Notes under the pieces: generated by a model
Told to the model about the DNA's origin: nothing
What the model saw: only the letters and a program-made list of their open reading frames with translations
Databases searched by the model: none
Part shown: piece after piece, positions 13,082 through 27,116 of the stretch
Layout of the letters: the number at the start of each line of letters is the position of its first letter
Numbering within the stretch: position 1 is the first letter of the stretch
Program-made: the position numbers and the translations under genes
Virus record (IMG/VR): IMGVR_UViG_3300009618_000028
Location: 1 to 28,311 of that record
From: a virus
DNA: 28,311 bases
Strand: one strand, 5' to 3'

Positions 13082-14404
13082 TTAGATCGTCGGCTGCGCC
13101 GCGTCGTCCACCCGCACCGCCGCGCGCACGTTGCTGAACGCCAAGTTCAGCGCGCTCACGTAGGCAAACATGGTCGAGGTCAGATAGCCGCCGTTCACAA
13201 TATCCGGCACGGGAGCGCTGGTGATGCCTCCGCCAAAGTCGTAGAGCTCAAGGGGCAGAAGCTCCCCGAGGTACGCGACATCGGCGGTAAACAGCTTCAA
13301 CTCGCCCGGCGTGGCGTTCATGCCCACGAGCGCCGGCCGCCCGGCATACTGTTTCGGCCACTCGCGCTTCGCCACGTCCGGCGTCACGTCCCCGGCGTTG
13401 CGGCTGGTCTCGCTGTAAATGGAGTTCAGATACAGCTCGGCCATCTGCATCGCCTGGTCCGGCCCGCAGTACCACACCGCCTTCTTCACGGCCTGGTTCT
13501 GCGGCCCCAACGCCCGCAACAGCAGCGTCAGCGCGCGCAGCCCGGTGCTCAGCGTAATGCTGGCGCCACCCAGGTTGATCGCCGGGGTCGAAAGCCGTCC
13601 GCCAAAGTTCTGCCGCAGCAGTCCGCCGATCGAGCCGGTCGGCGAGTTCACCAGCCACGCATCCAGGCCCAGAATCGACGCGCCTACTCCGGCGCTCGAT
13701 CCATTCACCACCAGGTAGTTGCCGGCCACCGGAGCCGCCGCGCTCCATCCGGCGGCGTTGGTTGTGATCGTCTGGGTCACGGGCTCGACGTAGGCGACGG
13801 TAAAGCTGCCGATCAGCGTCGGCGTCGAGCCTACGGCGCTGAAATACTGCACCGTCTGCTGGTCCTGGAACCGGAAGGCGTTGTTCAGGCCCACGATGGT
13901 GCACACGTTTCCGGTCGTACCCGTGATGGTCGCCGACGACGGGATCTGGTCCAATGTTCCGGTGCCGTCGCCCTGCAGCAGCGCCTCCAGGCCCTGCGTC
14001 GCCTGGGTAAAGGTGTTCTTCAGCTCCTGCGCCTGCACGTTGAAGAGGCCGCGCTTCGCGCCCTCGGTCGAAATGCGCGCCAGAAAGCTGATTTCGCAGG
14101 TCGAGTAGTAGAAGACCGGAGACAGCGCGAAGGCTGCCCATGTCGAGCCGGTGCCGCGTCCCAGCGAATCGGCATTGCCGGTTCCCTGCGAGATGGCTCC
14201 GCCCGCCTGCGCCCGGAAGGGCACGCGGAACGAAGGCCGGGGCACGCCGCCCGCAGCGGTCACATTGCTGATGGGGATGGTGGTTGCGTTGCTCTTCAGG
14301 TAGCCGTAGAGCGTTTCGTCATGCGGCACCAGATCGGGGATGCGCTTGGAGAACGCATCCAATTCAATTGCTTCTACGGCCGATTCCACGAGGGGACTCG
14401 CCAT
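13082..14404 (-). CDS. Major capsid protein (HK97-fold)
   Basis: 440 aa. The N-terminal arm is followed by residues 100-140 (TCEISFLARISTEGAKRGLFNVQAQELKNTF), which fits the long spine helix. Residues ~165-235 form a strand-rich segment (FRFQDQQTVQYFSAVGS, then FTVAYVEPVTQTITT) as in phage coat proteins of this fold. The C-terminal domain has LDAWL, a predicted helix QAVKKAVWYCGPDQAMQMAEL and a final strand region. Length and position after scaffold and portal support the call. The AGGAG ribosome site lies in the 3' arm of a hairpin (14413-14430). It has its own candidate promoter 320 bp upstream, fitting its high-copy need. Confidence 0.85.
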   Translation of the reverse strand: MASPLVESAVEAIELDAFSKRIPDLVPHDETLYGYLKSNATTIPISNVTAAGGVPRPSFRVPFRAQAGGAISQGTGNADSLGRGTGSTWAAFALSPVFYYSTCEISFLARISTEGAKRGLFNVQAQELKNTFTQATQGLEALLQGDGTGTLDQIPSSATITGTTGNVCTIVGLNNAFRFQDQQTVQYFSAVGSTPTLIGSFTVAYVEPVTQTITTNAAGWSAAAPVAGNYLVVNGSSAGVGASILGLDAWLVNSPTGSIGGLLRQNFGGRLSTPAINLGGASITLSTGLRALTLLLRALGPQNQAVKKAVWYCGPDQAMQMAELYLNSIYSETSRNAGDVTPDVAKREWPKQYAGRPALVGMNATPGELKLFTADVAYLGELLPLELYDFGGGITSAPVPDIVNGGYLTSTMFAYVSALNLAFSNVRAAVRVDDAAQPTI

Positions 14405-14769: not shown

Positions 14770-14839
14770 AAAGCAGCCTCTAGCCTCCAGCTTTTAGCTC
14801 CTAGCTAGAGGCTAGAAGCTAGCAGCTAGCGGCTGTCTT
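14770..14839. repeat. TAGC-type heptamer island, two arms; copy A of a 50-bp direct repeat
   Basis: AAAAGCAGCC at the left, two opposed arms of CTAGCTN-type units, and CTGTCTT at 14833-14839. Bases 14789-14838 are identical to 15831-15880. The last codons and TAG of the DUF5131 gene lie within it. Confidence 0.9.
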
Positions 14840-15790
14840 TGGAAACTCCTTCCACTCGCGCCCATCCAGCAGCGCCTCGGCGGCTTTCTTGCCGACACGG
14901 AGAAGGCCTTCGGTGGGCGTTTCTCCATTAGCATCAAGACGTTGCGCTGTATCTTCTGGCAGTTGGTCCCAGTCGCACCACTCGCCCCATTGCTTGAAGA
15001 AGAACGGCACGCCCGCAGCCACGCACTGGTCCCGCAGGCTCCGCGCCCAATCCGTGTGCATCGGCCGCGCGCCAGGGCCGCTCTCACCTCCGCAGATCAC
15101 CCAATCGATGTGTTCGAGATTGACTTTTCCAAGATCGAAAATCAGCGGCTCAAAGGATACAAATCGCTTCGCTGCAGGAGTCTGCTGGAGCAAATCTAAG
15201 CGTTGGTGCTGATTGCCTTCGTCACTCACGCCCAGCCACAGGTTGCGCATCGGCCAGCCCACGTTGTGCCCGTCGCCCAGCACCCCATTGATGGCGTTGG
15301 CAATGGCGCACTCGGCATTCTCGCCAAACAGCGGAATATCGTCTTCATCCCGCAGTGTGCTCAAGGATTCAGCCCATTCCTCCGCCGAATAGAACTGTTG
15401 GAAAAACTCCAGCATCAACTCGGGGCGCTTTGTCAGAACCTGAAATCTGTGGCGGGGAGCCAGCGCGACCACAGCCAAAACCCTAGAAATCCAACCAGCC
15501 AAGCGGGCCTTCGGGTGGAACAAATCACTCATCGAGTTAACGAAGATATTGCGTGGCTTTTTCCAGTGGAACGGCGCATCCCAGGTGTCTCCGGACCCCT
15601 CTTTCAGATCCCCGCTCCACACCGCCGCGCCATTCACAATCTGCGTGAGGCCCGCGTAGTTCGGCTTACTCTCCAGTCGCCGCGCGAACCGCTCCGCATA
15701 ACAATGCCGGCAACCCTCGCTCACCCGCGAACAGCCCATAAACGGATTCCACGTCGAATCCGTCCATTCAATCCCCGTCTTCGCCCCCAT
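14819..15790 (-). CDS. DUF5131 (phage Gp37/Gp68 family) protein, radical-SAM-like
   Basis: 323 aa, ATG at 15790 with GGGAG upstream. The N-terminus has the family signature: KTGIEWTDSTWNPFMGC, then three cysteines C20, C27 and C30 in CX6CX2C (GCRHCYAER), the pattern expected to hold an iron-sulphur cluster. Later parts also fit: MSDLFHP (about residue 86), FQVLTKRPE, LWLGVS, FVSFEPL, WVICGGESGPGARPM and FFFKQWGEW. The family occurs in phages and plasmids, often with a three-Cys-motif partner. Its reaction is not established to my knowledge. No partner gene is adjacent. The gene sits between scaffold and capsid genes, bracketed by identical 50-bp repeats, so it looks like an inserted cassette. 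Its final residues (KTAASC) and stop are repeat-derived. Confidence 0.88.
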   Translation of the reverse strand: MGAKTGIEWTDSTWNPFMGCSRVSEGCRHCYAERFARRLESKPNYAGLTQIVNGAAVWSGDLKEGSGDTWDAPFHWKKPRNIFVNSMSDLFHPKARLAGWISRVLAVVALAPRHRFQVLTKRPELMLEFFQQFYSAEEWAESLSTLRDEDDIPLFGENAECAIANAINGVLGDGHNVGWPMRNLWLGVSDEGNQHQRLDLLQQTPAAKRFVSFEPLIFDLGKVNLEHIDWVICGGESGPGARPMHTDWARSLRDQCVAAGVPFFFKQWGEWCDWDQLPEDTAQRLDANGETPTEGLLRVGKKAAEALLDGREWKEFPKTAASC

Positions 15791-16780: not shown

Positions 16781-16802
16781 AAGCCGGGAGGAATCCCGGC
16801 TT
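16781..16802 (-). terminator. Terminator-like hairpin after the scaffold gene
   Basis: On the minus strand AAGCCGGGA-TTCC-TCCCGGCTT forms a 9-bp perfect stem, followed by TTCC. The scaffold stop codon TAA overlaps its first bases. The T-run is short, so it may attenuate rather than fully stop transcription. Confidence 0.55.
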
Positions 16803-18213
16803 ACTTCCACCGCACCAGCTTGCGCCCGTTCCCGTCCTTGATGTACCCCTGCTGCTTGATCATCGCGTCGATCATGTCCTGCCCCGGCGCAAAGTCCCCG
16901 TCCGCCGGCTTCCGGCTCACCAGCACCGCCGTCTTGTTCACCGTCTGCGTGCGATTCCCTGTTCCCTGTTCCCTGTTCCCTGTTCCCTGCCTCTGTGTTG
17001 TCCTGGTCCCTTGGTCCCTTGATCCCTTGGTCCCATGCCGTTCCCACACCGCCCGCGCGCTCGCCGCCAGCACGCCCGAGATGCCGCTCTGCGACTGTTT
17101 CAGGATCCGATCCGCCTTACCTGTCTTCTGCCATGCCTTCAGGTTGGTTTGGAAGCTCTGGTCCGCCGCCAACCTACGGTCCACCTCCGCCGCAATCAGG
17201 CTCACCATGTCCGCCTGCTTCGCCGCGTCCAGCTTCGTCGCGCCCAGCAGAGGCTTCAGCGCCTTCTCGATCTCCGTCTTGGCCCACGGCACAAGCTGGC
17301 TCTGCACCTGCGCCACCACGCCCGCATCTCCGCCGGCGCCTGCACCCGCGCCGCCGCCAGCCCCCACACCAGATCCGGCGGCAACTCTGCCGGTTCCGGC
17401 GGCGCCATCTGATCCCGCTCCGGCGCCCTGCCTCTCGGCGGCTTGCGATTTCACGGCGCCAAGCCAATTCGATGCCCCCTTGATTTCGGCGAACGCCTGC
17501 TCTATATAGAACTTCACGTGCTCAGCATCGGTCGCCTGATACGCTTTCTTCAGCAGGCCATCGGCATTCCGTATCCATTCCGGCATCGGACTGCTGTCGA
17601 GCGCCTGCGCAAGGTGTGGAATCAGCGTTTCGGCGTAAGCGTTAACATCCAGGGTACGCAGATTGTCGAGAGCCACCGGAACCAGCTTTTTCATGCCCTC
17701 CGGGCTCTCCGCAAACATGTCTTGTATCACCTGCGGGTCGCCCGTGTCCACCATCTTGTCGATCGATTCCACGCTGGTTTCCAGGTCCCGCAGCCGCCCA
17801 ATCGACTCCGGGCCTCCCAGAATGTCGATCTGCTCCTTCAAGCTGCGCAGGTCCTTGATGTCGCCCAGCGCCGCATACTCCTGGTCGCGGTACCATGCTT
17901 TGCTTAGCGCGTCAATCAGCGGCTTCCGCTCCGGATCGTTCCGGCCCTCGCGCAAAAACTTCACCACCTCCGCGCGCGTCTTGTCCGCTCGCTGAGCAGC
18001 CTGCGCGGCCGCATCCCCGCCAGCGCCGGCGTCTCCCTGGTCTCCCTGATCGCCTTGGTCCCCAGCATCCCCTTGTTGATCGCCCTGGTCGCCTTGATCC
18101 CCAGCGTCCCCCTGGTCGCCCTGGTCGCCTTGATCCCCGCCGCCCAAATCGCCCAGCAAGCTCACATCCTGCTCGCTGCCCGCATCCACCACCATCGTCC
18201 CGTCGCCGTCCAT
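16801..18213 (-). CDS. Scaffolding-like head assembly protein
   Basis: 470 aa from the ATG at 18213, with a perfect AAGGAGG site; an upstream in-frame ATG would add repeat-coded residues and lacks one. Residues 26-62 are collagen-like Gly-Asp-Gln/Ala triplets. Residues 75-240 are charged and helical. Residues 255-295 are a Gly/Ala-rich linker, 300-390 helical again. Residues 394-424 (GTKGSRDQG..., GTGNREQGTGNR) are coded by heptamer repeats, and the C-terminus is basic (GNGRKLVRWK), as in P22-type scaffolds whose basic tail binds coat protein. The place between portal and capsid supports scaffolding. No protease was seen. Confidence 0.72.
   Translation of the reverse strand: MDGDGTMVVDAGSEQDVSLLGDLGGGDQGDQGDQGDAGDQGDQGDQQGDAGDQGDQGDQGDAGAGGDAAAQAAQRADKTRAEVVKFLREGRNDPERKPLIDALSKAWYRDQEYAALGDIKDLRSLKEQIDILGGPESIGRLRDLETSVESIDKMVDTGDPQVIQDMFAESPEGMKKLVPVALDNLRTLDVNAYAETLIPHLAQALDSSPMPEWIRNADGLLKKAYQATDAEHVKFYIEQAFAEIKGASNWLGAVKSQAAERQGAGAGSDGAAGTGRVAAGSGVGAGGGAGAGAGGDAGVVAQVQSQLVPWAKTEIEKALKPLLGATKLDAAKQADMVSLIAAEVDRRLAADQSFQTNLKAWQKTGKADRILKQSQSGISGVLAASARAVWERHGTKGSRDQGTRTTQRQGTGNREQGTGNRTQTVNKTAVLVSRKPADGDFAPGQDMIDAMIKQQGYIKDGNGRKLVRWK
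16950..17035. repeat. TTCCCTG/GGTCCCT heptamer arrays inside the scaffold gene
   Basis: Five TTCCCTG units at about 16953-16989 and GGTCCCTT/GATCCCTT units at 17005-17034, separated by 15 bases. Both unit types also occur in islands at 6500-6535 and 24380-24416. Confidence 0.9.
18028..18138 (-). repeat. Collagen-like GDQ/GDA codon repeat in the scaffold gene
   Basis: A 9-base codon repeat encodes about twelve Gly-Asp-Gln or Gly-Asp-Ala triplets, interrupted once by an extra Gln. Codons vary (GGC/GGG/GGA, GAC/GAT, CAG/CAA), so it is not a very recent expansion. Confidence 0.85.
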
Positions 18214-18224
18214 TGGTACCTCCT

Positions 18225-18258
18225 TGTAACTTTTGTTACATTTGTAACTTTTGTTACA
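18225..18258. promoter_or_regulatory. Two tandem perfect palindromes before the scaffold gene
   Basis: TGTAACTTTTGTTACA occurs twice, at 18225-18240 and 18243-18258, 18 bp apart start to start. Each is TGTAAC and GTTACA around four T (A on the other strand). The nearer copy directly precedes the AAGGAGG site of the scaffold gene. It could be a double operator or two mRNA hairpins. Confidence 0.6.
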
Positions 18259-18260
18259 TC

Positions 18261-18494
18261 TCAGTTTCTGAGCGTCGCTACCCGCTCGATTCCAACAATC
18301 ACCGCACCGAAAATCCGTGTGCTCTCGCTCGTTTGCAGCAGATCCTCCGCCAGCAGCGAAGCCTCTGAAAATTCTTCGCCGCAACGGAAGAGAAAATCGT
18401 GTTTCGCTGTCCCCACCCTTAAATTCGCTTTCCAAAGCGTGCGCGGTTCCCTAATCGCCGACCCGCTTGTGGCCGCAGTCTTCTTAGCTCGCAT
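18261..18494 (-). CDS. Small head-module protein, unknown role
   Basis: 77 aa. The ATG at 18494 lies inside the end of the portal gene (11-bp overlap), indicating coupled translation. The N-terminus is basic (MRAKKTAATSG). Residues 45-72 (ASLLAEDLLQTSESTRIFGAVIVGIERVATL) look like a helix plus strand. Nothing in it identifies a family. Its place between portal and scaffold is shared by small accessory proteins in other podoviruses. Confidence 0.6.
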   Translation of the reverse strand: MRAKKTAATSGSAIREPRTLWKANLRVGTAKHDFLFRCGEEFSEASLLAEDLLQTSESTRIFGAVIVGIERVATLRN

Positions 18495-21400
18495 TCTGGG
18501 CCTCCGTCCCCATTCCCTGTTTTTCCGGCGCCAACCCCATCTCCGCCGGGTGCCGCAGCGCCTCTTTCGCCACCCGGTCCTGCGCCACGCTCTGCGGCGC
18601 GCCCGGCAGCTTGTACTCGTTCAGCAGCGCCGCCGCGGCCTCCGGCGGCAGGTCCTTGAAGTTCGCCGTCACCGTCACCGGCTTCATGGGCGGCGTCGGC
18701 GGCGGCACATTGGCCTTGTGCGCCAGCATGTGCAGCTCCACGTTCAGCCACCCCGCCCGCTCTTCAGGGCTGCCGCTCTTCATCGCCCGCCCCGCCGGCG
18801 AGTTCAGCCACCACAGGCAGGTCTGCATCTCCGTCGCGTGATCGTCACAATCCGCGTCCACCGGCAGCGAACTCACCATCGGCGGCATCGCCTGCGCCGC
18901 CCGCTTCGCCTGTTCCGCCGCAGCGGCTCCCTGCCGCGCCGCATTAGCCTGCTCCGGGGTCGCCGCGCCCTGCGCCATCCCCTGCGCCTGCGCGCCAAGC
19001 TGCTCAGCCGCTGCCAGCGCCTGCTGCTGCGCCGGGTTGGGCGCCGGCTCCGCCCGCATCAGGATCTCGATCTCGCCTACCTGCTTCTCCCATGCATCCG
19101 CCTGCGGCATCTCCAGCTCTTCAATCCCCGCCATGCGCACCGCCGTCCGCATGTTTAGCGGCGTCGCGCTCAGGAACTGCGCCACCAGCGGATTTCCGGC
19201 GTCCGTCAGCAGTGTCTGGTAGCGGCTCTGCTTTTGCACCCAGCTCTCGGGGAAGTTCGCACCGTTCTCCGGAAACTCCAGCACCTGGCCCTTCAATTCG
19301 CTGATCTCCAACCGCACCGCCGTGTCCCCGTCCATGCCGCAGATCGGCTCCGTGCGCATCCTTGCCGCCAGCCGCGCCGCCTGCGCAAAATAGCTGGCCG
19401 TTCCCACTTGCATGGCGTGCCACGGCGTCCCCAGCCGCCCCAGCGCCTGGTCTCTCTGGATCCCCACCGCCACCCCGCTCGAGGCGTCCGTGTTCGACGG
19501 CGCGCCAAACAAACTCGGCAATGCTCCGCTCACCAGTTGCGCCAGTCCGTTGATAAACTGCATGATCGCGTCCCACATCGCCGGATTCTGCTGCGGCGCC
19601 GGTTCCACCCAGACCGGTGTAATCCCTGTCGCGGCCTGATTCTGCAAACTGCTGGCATCATAGGGAATCATCGGCCCCGGCGTGCTGGCGGATTCCTTGA
19701 TCTGATTAGGGTCGCCCAGCGCCACGTTGAACCATCGCGCAGGCACGCAGCGGATGAAGTAATCGTTCAAGAGGTCGATCCAGTTGTTCACCCGCTTCTG
19801 CACGCTCAACAGCTTCGAGCACAGGCTGGGCCGGTTCATGCCCGAGCCCGGAAAGGCCTGAATCAGCGTACAGTGGTCGTCGATCGACTCCTGCCGCGCA
19901 AAAATGAAGGCCTCGCCCGCAATCACCACTAGGCAGCCGTCCGGGAACTCGTTCAGCAGCTCCGCGCGCACGTTCAGGTCTTCCACTTCCATAAACATCG
20001 ACGGCCGGAACCACGTCCTCTGCACCGTGCAGTCGCGCACCATGGAATCGCCCGTCACGTAGCTCGCTTCCAGAGCCAGCGCCACGTTGATCCGGGCAAT
20101 CCGGTCCAGCTCGTTCTCGCCCGCGCCCGCCGATCCCGGCTTGATCTTGTCCGCCTTGTCCGGGAACATGCCCTTCACGTAGGCGAAGTCGTACTCTTTG
20201 CTCACCTGCACAAATGGGCAGTCGCTCAGCGTCATGGCGTTGATAGGGACCTTGTGTTCCAGCTTTCCGTAGACCTCGGCAATCTCGCGCCCGCGCGGCA
20301 GGCCCCGCGTCCGGCTGCGCGCCGGCTCGGGAGCGATGGCCGGAAAGGCAGTATGCGCCGCCCAGCTTCCATCGGGATTCGCCTCCACCGCCGCCACGCC
20401 GCCCGGCGGCACCTGCCCGCCTACTGGAATATCATCGCCCATCAGCAGCCGGAAGATCTCCGTGATCACCGAATCGTGCGTCACAATCGCCACCGGCGCA
20501 TCGGGCGTTGCCGAATCGAGCAACTCTGTCAGCGCATCCTCGATCCGCGCCTTGAACTCGTTGAACGATTCTCCGCCCGGCATCGACGTGTCCGGCTCTT
20601 CCTCGTAGCGCTCGATCTCGCCCTGCGCCGCCTGCCCATCCTCGCCGGCCAGGTCGCCGATGTTCAGGCTGGCCAGCCGGTCGTCCATCTCCACCGGTGC
20701 GCCCGTGGCCTGCGCCACCGCCCGCGCCGTCTCCAGGCTGCGCTCCACCGGACTGCTCACGATCCGCGCCACGCGCCTCTGCTTCAGCCAGTCCGCCGCG
20801 CGATCCGCCTGCCGCTCGCCGCGCTCATCCAATGGGATTTCAAGTCGCCCCCGCGCCTTGCCGTCGGCATTCGCCTCCGTCTCGCCGTGCCGCACCAGCC
20901 AGATGGCCGGGTGCTCGCTCTCCGCCGAAGCGTTCTCGGGAACCACCGGCTCCTGCAACTTCTGCCGCCCAAACCGCTGCGCATCGAGTATGTGATCCAC
21001 CACCACCAGCGCTCGCCCATCGTTTCTCAGGTAGTACACAAGCTGGTGCTGCAAGTCCAGCAGGTCATTGGCCCGCGCAAACAACCGGGAATACTTCGTC
21101 GCCGCCCGCGCCGCCGTAATGTCGCCATCGCTGGTGGGATCCTGCGGCTCAAAGCGCACCGCGGGAATGTCCCGCGTCAGCGCCGCTGAGATGATCTCTC
21201 CGTAGCTCGAATAAATATTGGTCTCGTAGCCGTACCACTTCCTGCTGCCCTGGTTCGAGCCGGCGCGGTTGTAGTTGGTTGCGAAGGGCGGCATCACCCA
21301 GCCGCCCCCCTTGCGTGGCAGTAGATACTGGTAACCATGGTCGTAGAGCCGTGCCTCCCAGCTCTGCTCCACCTCCCAGCGCCGCGCCGCCACGTCCTTG

Positions 21401-21609
21401 TTGCCCACCAGATCGCAGAGCCGCCGCAGTTGTTTTTCCGCATCCTCCGAGAGCTGCGCCGGTTCGTGCGGCGAGGCCCAGAACGGCGCCAGCTCGCCGG
21501 GATCGAACTGCGGCATCTTCGGCTCTTGCTCCTCCTCGTCCTGCGCCTGCCCCGTCCCGTCACCAGACGGAAACGGGCTCTGCGTGTAGCTCACTGCCTG
21601 GGTTGCCAT
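18484..21609 (-). CDS. Portal protein with inserted histidine-phosphatase domain
   Basis: 1041 aa, far longer than P22 portal (725 aa). Residues 50-215 and ~440-860 read as a P22-like portal (LLDLQHQLVYYLRNDGRALVVVD, then GREIAEVYGKLEHKVPINAM, then SVQKRVNNWIDLLNDYFIRC and SSGVAVGIQRDQALGRLGTP). Residues ~235-424 are a complete histidine-phosphatase (phosphoglycerate-mutase-like) domain: R240-H241-G-E, R290 in SSPVERSLETA, E347 in PGGESF, H378 in VTHDS. All catalytic residues of that superfamily are present, so it may be active. It interrupts the wing region between two strands. The C-terminus (870-930) is Ala/Gln-rich helix. The ribosome site AGGAG is part of the heptamer island upstream. 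Substrate unknown. Confidence 0.88.
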   Translation of the reverse strand: MATQAVSYTQSPFPSGDGTGQAQDEEEQEPKMPQFDPGELAPFWASPHEPAQLSEDAEKQLRRLCDLVGNKDVAARRWEVEQSWEARLYDHGYQYLLPRKGGGWVMPPFATNYNRAGSNQGSRKWYGYETNIYSSYGEIISAALTRDIPAVRFEPQDPTSDGDITAARAATKYSRLFARANDLLDLQHQLVYYLRNDGRALVVVDHILDAQRFGRQKLQEPVVPENASAESEHPAIWLVRHGETEANADGKARGRLEIPLDERGERQADRAADWLKQRRVARIVSSPVERSLETARAVAQATGAPVEMDDRLASLNIGDLAGEDGQAAQGEIERYEEEPDTSMPGGESFNEFKARIEDALTELLDSATPDAPVAIVTHDSVITEIFRLLMGDDIPVGGQVPPGGVAAVEANPDGSWAAHTAFPAIAPEPARSRTRGLPRGREIAEVYGKLEHKVPINAMTLSDCPFVQVSKEYDFAYVKGMFPDKADKIKPGSAGAGENELDRIARINVALALEASYVTGDSMVRDCTVQRTWFRPSMFMEVEDLNVRAELLNEFPDGCLVVIAGEAFIFARQESIDDHCTLIQAFPGSGMNRPSLCSKLLSVQKRVNNWIDLLNDYFIRCVPARWFNVALGDPNQIKESASTPGPMIPYDASSLQNQAATGITPVWVEPAPQQNPAMWDAIMQFINGLAQLVSGALPSLFGAPSNTDASSGVAVGIQRDQALGRLGTPWHAMQVGTASYFAQAARLAARMRTEPICGMDGDTAVRLEISELKGQVLEFPENGANFPESWVQKQSRYQTLLTDAGNPLVAQFLSATPLNMRTAVRMAGIEELEMPQADAWEKQVGEIEILMRAEPAPNPAQQQALAAAEQLGAQAQGMAQGAATPEQANAARQGAAAAEQAKRAAQAMPPMVSSLPVDADCDDHATEMQTCLWWLNSPAGRAMKSGSPEERAGWLNVELHMLAHKANVPPPTPPMKPVTVTANFKDLPPEAAAALLNEYKLPGAPQSVAQDRVAKEALRHPAEMGLAPEKQGMGTEAQNAS

Positions 21610-24418: not shown

Positions 24419-26050
24419 TCACAATTCCTTCATCCACACCGGCTTGTACTCCGGCACGATCACCCGCGTTGCCGCCTGCTGCCTTTGCCGCTGCGCCACC
24501 AGAAACCAGCGCTTGAACGGGTCCGGCTGCGCCGCTGCCATCTCGCGGGTCTTCTCTTCGTAGGTTTCCGGCCTGCCCGAAAGCATACCATACAGCCCGT
24601 GCCGGAACCCGTCCCAGCAGTCGTCCGCCTTCTGCGTGGTGTCGCTGTCCTCCCGCTTCACCACATCTTCCGGGTCCGCCTCGTCCCGCATCAGGCTCGG
24701 CAGCGCCCGGATCAGCTCCTCGCACTCGGCCAGAATCACAATCCCATGCCGGTTGAAAAGGTTGTAGGCCATCGACGCCGACGCCTTCCGGTCCCGCGTT
24801 CCCCGGCTCACCGCCGGCAGCCCCCGCTTCACCAAGAGCGCCGTGTACTCCTCGGCCGGCGAGTGCGCCTCCATCCGCAGCGCAAACTGCTCATGGCTGT
24901 ACCAGATGGCTTCTATCTTCTCCTTCGCGCCCTTTTTCACGGGATTGTTGTCCCGGTCGTACCCCTCCCATCGGTTCACGCTCAACCGCGCCAGCTCGTC
25001 CGCCCACCAGGCCTGGTCCTTTCCTTTTTCCACGCGCTCCCGATAGACCACGATTTTTTCCCGCCACTCGCCGCCCAGCTTCGGCCGCACCTTGGCCCAC
25101 GTAAACCAGAAACAGCTTCCGAAGTGCGCCCGCCCCGCGTCCTGCCCGCACCACTTCGCCTGCTTCGCGTCCCACCGGATCGCGCTGGGATCGGTCCTGA
25201 GATCCACCACGTGCACATCCGGGTCCCAGCAGTCGAAGTACTGCCCGCTCTGCGCGTCCATGTTGCCGTAGAGCAGCCGCTCCCGGTCCGCCGCGTTCAA
25301 CGTCGACATCAGCCTCTGGTAGAGCGCGGGATCGCGCTTGATCAGGTGGGGATTGTCCAGGAGCGTCGAGTGCACATAATCCCAGTCGGCCGGATCGTAC
25401 ACGCACACCGGTTTCCCGTCACGCTCCAGCCAGTAGCGCCCCCTGTCGTCCACCGTCGCGCCCTCGGGAGCCTCCCAGGGCCGCTTCTCCACAAACTGTG
25501 TCTTGTACCACGGCCAGTGCGGGCCCACCGGGTTGGTCGCCGCCAGCATGGCGGGCCGCGGCAGCGTGCCGTGCACGCTCAGCTTGCAGCCGGGATTCAG
25601 CCGGTTGCGGCTGCTCATCCAGGCGTAGGCCTCGCCGGCAATCTGCCCGCACTCGTTGAAGATGATCAGCGGAAACGCCGCCGACAGGTACTGGCTCAGG
25701 TCGCTCAGCGAGTTGTTGTCCATGTGGCCGAAGGTCAACGTGCTCTTGTTGTAAAAGGTGGCCACGTGGTCGCTTTTGTTGTATTTGAAGAGCTCGTTGG
25801 GGATGAACTCGTGCAGGTCCTTGATCTCCGAGTCCTTCATGTCGCCGTAGTTGCGCCGAATCCACAGCGCCGTCAGTCCATCCCAGTAGAGCAGGTAGCT
25901 CTGAATCGCCTCCATCATCATGTCCGAGCTTTTGCTCGATCCGGTGCCGCCCACGCGCAGCCGGTTCGGCGCCCTGCTCATGCGGATACGCTTGTTCTTG
26001 GGCGTCGGCTCCCAGTTCCGCAGATCGAATTGGCCGGAAAGGTCGGACAT
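24419..26050 (-). CDS. terL: Terminase large subunit
   Basis: 543 aa. It is the DNA-packaging motor ATPase and nuclease. Walker A is G34GTGSSKS41. A Walker-B-like FPLIIFNEC (126-134) carries the catalytic Glu at 133, with Asn where Asp is usual. The coupling motif ATNP is at 171-174. The nuclease part shows D304 (CGQDAGRAH, equivalent to the common 'DWG.AHP') and a C-terminal acidic motif D476/D477...D480 with GFRHGLYGM. Length is normal. It follows TerS and two small genes. The ribosome site is weak and lies in a heptamer island upstream. Confidence 0.93.
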   Translation of the reverse strand: MSDLSGQFDLRNWEPTPKNKRIRMSRAPNRLRVGGTGSSKSSDMMMEAIQSYLLYWDGLTALWIRRNYGDMKDSEIKDLHEFIPNELFKYNKSDHVATFYNKSTLTFGHMDNNSLSDLSQYLSAAFPLIIFNECGQIAGEAYAWMSSRNRLNPGCKLSVHGTLPRPAMLAATNPVGPHWPWYKTQFVEKRPWEAPEGATVDDRGRYWLERDGKPVCVYDPADWDYVHSTLLDNPHLIKRDPALYQRLMSTLNAADRERLLYGNMDAQSGQYFDCWDPDVHVVDLRTDPSAIRWDAKQAKWCGQDAGRAHFGSCFWFTWAKVRPKLGGEWREKIVVYRERVEKGKDQAWWADELARLSVNRWEGYDRDNNPVKKGAKEKIEAIWYSHEQFALRMEAHSPAEEYTALLVKRGLPAVSRGTRDRKASASMAYNLFNRHGIVILAECEELIRALPSLMRDEADPEDVVKREDSDTTQKADDCWDGFRHGLYGMLSGRPETYEEKTREMAAAQPDPFKRWFLVAQRQRQQAATRVIVPEYKPVWMKEL

Positions 26051-26326: not shown

Positions 26327-26526
26327 CATCTCTCCGTCGTCCCCCAACCTTTAGCTCTCGCCGGCTCCGGCGGCGCCTTAAGTTGTTCCACCAGCGCCTC
26401 CGCGTCGGAATAGATTTTGTACAGCCGTTGAGCCTCTTGCTCGGCAGTCAAGTATGCGCGCCGGGCGGCGGCGGCGCTCCATTCGGCTCTCGAAATCTGC
26501 TCCGGCGTCCCCGCTTTGTTCGCCAT
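26326..26526 (-). CDS. Small coiled-coil protein
   Basis: 66 aa, ATG at 26526 overlapping the TerS stop by one base (TGATG), with GGAGG before it. It is Ala/Glu-rich and helical (ISRAEWSAAAARRAYLTAEQEAQRLYKI ...). It is probably a short coiled coil. Encoded between the two terminase subunits. Function unknown. Confidence 0.6.
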   Translation of the reverse strand: MANKAGTPEQISRAEWSAAAARRAYLTAEQEAQRLYKIYSDAEALVEQLKAPPEPARAKGWGTTER

Positions 26527-27116
26527 CACCCCTCCGTCGTCGGCCGGGCCGTCCCCGGCAAAATCGTGCTCGCCTCAATCAGCCCCTGGATCGTCGGCTG
26601 CGTCAACTCCGGCAGATCCTGCGGGTTGGGCGGCAAAATCACCCGCTCCACCTTGTGCTCGATCTCCAGCTTGTCCCCATAGATCATTGGCAAAATCTTG
26701 CTCACATACCATTGCAAGTGCTGCACCTTCACCTGCGCCGCGTAGGCCTCATTCCGGTCCTTGGCCGCCAGCAGCTCCGCCTGGATCAGCTCCAGCAGCC
26801 CCTGCGCGTGCTCCTGCCGCGCAATCACGCACTCCCGCGCAAAGCCCGTGTCCTCCATCATCCACCGGGCGATCATGCGCCGCCCCGGCAAATCGAGATT
26901 CTCACCCAGGATGCGGTCCAGCGTCTTGTGCACCAGCCCGTCCACGATGCGCCGCTTCATCTGCGCCATTTGCAGCGCGTCAAGAGGTTTTCCGGGTTGC
27001 CGCGCCACATGCGGAATCCGCGGCTCCTTTGGCCCCTTGAAGTGCCGTCCCCGCGGCCGTCCCCGCCGCTTCGGCGCCGGCGGAACCTCCTCCGGACTAA
27101 AAAGCTCGTCGGTCAT
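26526..27116 (-). CDS. terS: Terminase small subunit
   Basis: 196 aa. It recognises the packaging site and hands DNA to TerL. Residues 18-45 are a basic tail. The helical core (residues ~60-145) reads as in Sf6-type small subunits: ARWMMEDTGFARECVIARQEHAQGL, then VKVQHLQWYVSKILPMIYGDK, which matches the usual '...W...K..P..YGDK'. Its ATG overlaps the stop of the chimeric upstream gene as ATGA, with GGAG at good distance. Confidence 0.88.
   Translation of the reverse strand: MTDELFSPEEVPPAPKRRGRPRGRHFKGPKEPRIPHVARQPGKPLDALQMAQMKRRIVDGLVHKTLDRILGENLDLPGRRMIARWMMEDTGFARECVIARQEHAQGLLELIQAELLAAKDRNEAYAAQVKVQHLQWYVSKILPMIYGDKLEIEHKVERVILPPNPQDLPELTQPTIQGLIEASTILPGTARPTTEG

Follow-up and report, generated by a model that had tools for sequence, protein, structure and literature searches.

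Head genes of the phage and identity of the portal

The DNA analysed here, called the window throughout, is a 28,311-nucleotide stretch of an uncultured, soil-type phage (IMG/VR record IMGVR_UViG_3300009618_000028). The following head and packaging genes were assigned on it:

26526..27116, minus strand: terminase small subunit, Sf6-like (PF20901, E 6e-10)
24419..26050, minus strand: terminase large subunit (phrog_979, E 4e-20; PF04466)
18484..21609, minus strand: portal protein with an inserted histidine-phosphatase domain, 1041 amino acids (uninterrupted single open reading frame, AlphaFold2 model, Foldseek)
13082..14404, minus strand: putative major capsid protein (by position and conservation only)

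The gene order, an Sf6-like small terminase subunit followed by the large subunit, the 1041-residue protein and then the putative capsid gene, fits a portal. No family match was found for the putative capsid gene in profile searches, and it is 39–65% conserved in the head modules of L015, L188 and L196, which are described below. Between it and the gene after the portal lies a DUF5131 gene (14819-15790, minus strand; PF07505, E 1e-89). The gene directly after the portal (16801-18435, minus strand) encodes a low-complexity protein rich in GDQGDQGDAG, with tail-fibre profile matches that are weak and probably compositional; by its position it is a scaffold candidate.

An AlphaFold2 model of the full-length protein, built on 47 relatives, reached a pLDDT of 78.5. 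When the model was compared to the PDB with Foldseek, the best matches were the portals of N4, Pa223, SU10 and DEV (best E 2e-11), with N4, Pa223 and SU10 at E 2e-11 to 5e-10, and the named matches among the predicted viral structures of BFVD were mostly portal proteins (E 1.6e-15). Sequence profiles gave far less: the PHROGs portal family phrog_156 matches residues 633–728 weakly (E 2e-6) and is found in three of the 47 family members, while the Pfam P22_portal profile has weak matches in two of the 47 (best E 0.0035). A profile of the portal family found no match among PDB sequences, and a tblastn search with the C-terminal part of the portal found none in annotated phages. Because sequence profiles recognise the family poorly and PDB sequences go unmatched, the identification as a portal rests mainly on fold. 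The flanks of this protein had been read as a portal in the original prediction, and the structural matches uphold that reading, the sequence evidence (phrog_156) being weak.

Portal relatives were also found in bacterial genome contigs. All 20 of these are Acidobacteriota, at 29–36% identity, and judging from relatives at this distance the host phylum of the phage is probably Acidobacteriota.

A histidine-phosphatase domain on a portal hairpin

The inserted domain and its surroundings are arranged as follows:

20986..21015, minus strand: portal hairpin strand A, residues 199–208, before the insert (AlphaFold2 model)
20917..20952, minus strand: linker, residues 220–231, pLDDT below 50 (AlphaFold2 model)
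20338..20907, minus strand: histidine-phosphatase (HP1) domain, residues 235–424 (PF00300, domain model, Foldseek)
20308..20337, minus strand: linker, residues 425–434, pLDDT below 50 (AlphaFold2 model)
20269..20292, minus strand: portal hairpin strand B, residues 440–447, after the insert (AlphaFold2 model)

The Pfam family of branch-1 histidine phosphatases, PF00300, matches residues 236–395 at E 2.1e-39, scoring 135.6 bits where the cut-off is 21.7. The domain also matches phrog_12933 (E 5e-28), a family for which PHROGs gives neither a function nor a note of portal fusion. A separate AlphaFold2 model of residues 211–446 has a core pLDDT above 90. Among the matches listed for this model by Foldseek in the PDB, all have the HP1/phosphoglycerate-mutase fold, with GpgP-type hydrolases first (E 3e-16) and TM scores of up to 0.8 by target length; the phosphatase fold proposed at the outset is the one recovered.

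The window portal shares its overall fold with the portals of N4 (9LBZ), Pa223 (9NWM) and SU10 (7Z44) and with P22-like portals, as judged by Foldseek. It differs from them in that its hairpin contains, between residues 208 and 440, an enzyme insert of about 225 residues. In the full-length model the phosphatase domain is placed on flexible linkers where a beta-hairpin seems to have its tip. The original proposal, a histidine-phosphatase domain set between two strands of the wing in a P22-like portal, is supported by Pfam, by AlphaFold2 and Foldseek, by relatives that have and that lack the insert, and by independent contigs.

Recurrence of the fusion at a variable loop

Nothing was found in favour of an assembly artefact in which two genes had been joined. 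The window gene is a single open reading frame with both flanks from the same portal, and the same fusion is present in three other IMG/VR contigs at 98–99.8% protein identity. A comparison by codon of the near-identical contigs gave zero differences within the phosphatase domain. Two diverged portals carry the domain at the same insertion point, namely L015 (54% identity over the whole protein and 42% in the domain) and L188 (55% in the portal core and 48% in the domain); the portal-core identity of both to the window is about 55–60%. A false join is ruled out by the three other contigs together with L015 and L188, and we regard it as practically impossible. Such a join had been named beforehand as one finding that would overturn the fusion, and a search for the same fusion in other phage portals had been suggested; the independent contigs and the diverged homologues carry it.

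One portal, L016, is 44% identical and has no phosphatase domain. In about 90 relatives the same site holds either linkers of 6–75 amino acids, many of them acidic, or segments of 60–150 amino acids with paired CxxC, some of which are recognised as zinc ribbons by Pfam. Since relatives hold linkers or CxxC segments there, the loop is a site of variable insertions, of which the phosphatase is one. In L063 and L067–L116 the hairpin loop runs between QRFG and PxGQEV motifs, and most Acidobacteriota-type portals of this family have an insert of 60–150 amino acids with paired CxxC zinc-ribbon motifs in it.

A loop this variable in length and content might tolerate a domain that does nothing at all, a neutral passenger. 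Against this, the domain is intact in three portals at 42–48% domain identity with its catalytic residues invariant, and its family is found again and again in unrelated phages, in their head modules. We consider a functionless passenger very unlikely.

Catalytic residues and the missing proton donor

Alignment to solved enzymes places the residues of the active site as follows:

20887..20892, minus strand: R240-H241, phosphate-binding arginine and nucleophilic histidine of the RHG motif (alignments to GpgP and PhoE)
20740..20742, minus strand: R290, second phosphate-binding arginine (aligned with GpgP R60)
20668..20670, minus strand: S314, in place of the proton-donor glutamate of PhoE and GpgP (alignments to solved enzymes)
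20569..20571, minus strand: E347, the GGES glutamate, distinct from the usual proton donor (alignments)
20473..20478, minus strand: H378-D379, second catalytic histidine and the aspartate that follows it (alignment; HD as in the branch-2 phytase AppA)

The domain had been credited with the full catalytic set of the superfamily. R240-H241-G-E, R290, E347 and H378 are indeed found where they were predicted, but the set is one residue short: the proton-donor glutamate (GpgP E84, PhoE E83) is replaced by S314 in every alignment to solved enzymes, whether pairwise (with GpgP, phosphoserine phosphatase and PhoE) or by profile (with PhoE). The position is occupied by A in L015 and by S in L188. E347 was considered as the donor and ruled out, as it aligns with the GGES glutamate and not with PhoE E83 or GpgP E84; the GGES glutamate is also present in enzymes that have the donor glutamate (E83). 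PhoE (1H2E), GpgP (4PZ9) and phosphoserine phosphatase (4IJ5) share with the window domain the fold, the RHG motif, the second arginine, the second histidine and GGES. The window domain differs from them in having S314 for the donor glutamate and an aspartate after the second histidine, and in being embedded in a portal.

With the donor glutamate absent, phosphatase activity could be low or lost. Nor is SixA known to have the donor glutamate. It is a phosphohistidine phosphatase of the histidine phosphatase superfamily (PMC7948535). The proton donor of these enzymes is this glutamate, and the residue used is reported to differ across histidine-phosphatase families (PMC12051542), so that the glutamate is not strictly defining for branch 1. 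In the branch-2 phytase AppA the aspartate after the second histidine, D304, is the proton donor (PMC9181005). An aspartate follows the second histidine, as HDS, in all three portal-hairpin domains, and by analogy with AppA D379 may be a substitute proton donor.

Conservation within the phage family bears on the same question. Across 17 diverged phage homologues the first arginine, the histidine and glycine of the motif, the second arginine and the second histidine are invariant, while the donor position holds S, A, P or T in members that were retrieved with queries lacking the glutamate and with search patterns that excluded its column. The invariant core favours retained phosphate chemistry in the phage family. 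An active enzyme is plausible because both arginines and both histidines are kept across homologues this diverged.

The missing donor would also suit a reading of the domain as a binding module with little or no catalysis left, whose phosphate pocket senses or binds a phosphorylated ligand, a nucleotide or a protein during portal assembly or packaging; the site also tolerates inserts that are not enzymes, such as zinc ribbons and acidic linkers. A module of this kind would have no need to keep the nucleophilic histidine, and yet this residue is invariant over a divergent family together with the second histidine and both arginines. Such a binding role seems to us rather unlikely.

A phage phosphatase family without the donor glutamate

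In a maximum-likelihood tree of 60 sequences, 23 sequences without the glutamate (Glu-less) group together (support 100/97), and within them the three portal-hairpin domains form one clade (support 100/99). All but one of the 23 are viral. The exception, L154, is cellular, and its neighbours are host genes with no prophage head module. An origin from ordinary Acidobacteriota phosphatases was considered and is unsupported, as the sampled cellular groups fall outside the phage clade, L154 excepted. One cellular Acidobacteriota clade (L134–L143, L146 and L149) has Asn at the donor position and HR after the second histidine.

Degeneration does happen in the Glu-less clade, because the domain of L122 has lost its RHG motif. 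This domain is part of a polyvalent protein of 2303 amino acids (L122:3495-10403), where it is followed by a 2H/Acb1-like domain. Two further domains lie within large proteins and also match phrog_12933: that of L183, which adjoins an internal virion protein, and that of L194, which keeps the glutamate at the donor position and is outside the Glu-less clade.

Other members are genes of their own. L196 and L198 are relatives of the window phage by terminase, portal and capsid, and in both the phosphatase is a separate gene of 206 residues with an ATG that overlaps the portal stop codon as ATGA. In a sample of phages that was not random, free phosphatase genes were further found near SU10-type portal and capsid genes (L165, L170), near terminase and portal (L175, L180, L184, L187), near terminase (L179, L182) and near a capsid gene (L186, L190), and the association with head modules is drawn from this sample. 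For comparison, phage phosphatases that keep the glutamate (L124, L128, L130) have as neighbours ABC-ATPase-like, RNA/DNA ligase and NAD synthetase-like genes, with a baseplate gene also near that of L130.

Two features of these loci were seen in passing. Four of the free-standing phosphatases (L175, L184, L187, L196) end in Gly-Ser. Just upstream of two others are genes (L181:1021-1821 and L182:2724-3500) whose products have a signal-peptide-like start and share a CST(T)V motif; these possibly encode a secreted protease, a guess made from sequence.

The portal family of the window is not the only one with such a fusion. A lambda-type portal (L121:3027-5693; PF05136 at residues 88–494) has a C-terminal PF00300 domain of the Glu-less clade at residues 665–830, and this is a second, independent fusion, to a portal family unrelated to that of the window. 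We judge it an even question whether the phage-specific Glu-less phosphatases recur as a standard component of tailed-phage head modules, as free genes next to terminase, portal or capsid, and have on two or more occasions become part of a portal, in two portal families unrelated to each other, as a working enzyme of the virion or of assembly.

Relation to enzymes fused to other head proteins

An active enzyme in twelve copies at the DNA gate had been called unexpected. In general, the fusion of an enzyme to a portal has precedents. Fusions to portal, MuF or other head proteins have been described for 2H, PBECR and InPase (PMC5512222) and for Nudix and ART domains (PMC9503650), all proposed to be packaged and injected. 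The window portal fits this polyvalent-protein theme in that an enzyme and a head protein share one polypeptide. It departs from it in that the portal fold itself contains the domain, at a hairpin tip, and in that the family of the domain also occurs as a free gene beside the portal. What does seem new is the phosphatase: the word "phosphatase" is absent from the text of PMC5512222, a search of open papers for a portal together with histidine phosphatase or phosphoglycerate mutase found nothing relevant, and the phosphatase version of a portal-fused enzyme appears to be undescribed so far.

Portals are not known to be ejected. Because of this, delivery is less likely for a portal hairpin fusion than for polyvalent proteins. 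On the model of the portal- and MuF-fused enzymes in the literature (2H, InPase, Nudix, ART), the domain could be an effector that enters the host when infection begins and probably counters a defence signal based on a nucleotide or on phosphate (PMC5512222, PMC9503650). Two relatives of the domain point the same way, that of L122, which shares its polyvalent protein with a 2H domain resembling Acb1, and that of L183, which lies beside an internal virion protein. Besides the matter of ejection, the linkers showed no identifiable cleavage site, and the free-standing relatives are found among assembly genes and not in a known injected set. Delivery as an effector is, in our view, unlikely.

Proposed origin and role of the domain

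The explanation we prefer, with a probability of roughly 55%, is that a phosphohydrolase of the head module was captured by a portal loop and most likely works by phospho-His241 chemistry without the usual glutamate. The protein would be a podovirus-like phage portal with a branch-1 domain tethered by two flexible linkers at a beta-hairpin tip. The insertion site would be a permissive loop, in which relatives hold other inserts. The source would be the phage phosphatase family, normally a gene of its own in the head-packaging module, and in the lineage of the window the portal gene would have captured the phosphatase domain.

In the expected course of hydrolysis the phosphate is passed to His241, and R240, R290 and H378 hold this phospho-His241 intermediate. 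For want of a donor glutamate, either D379 would substitute or the substrate would have a good leaving group. Portals stay in the capsid, and therefore access to cytoplasmic substrates would be limited after ejection. The place of action would presumably be the infected cell, where portals are made and assembled, or the inside of the virion.

The phosphatase domain looks like a real, recurrent part of phage heads. A folded domain of about 190 residues is accommodated by the portal loop, and an unannotated phage gene family, phrog_12933, is linked to head assembly. The question can be tested through two kinds of relatives, those with a separate enzyme gene right after the portal and those with a portal loop without the enzyme. 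If the preferred explanation is true, the DNA gate of these viruses would carry an enzyme that removes phosphate.
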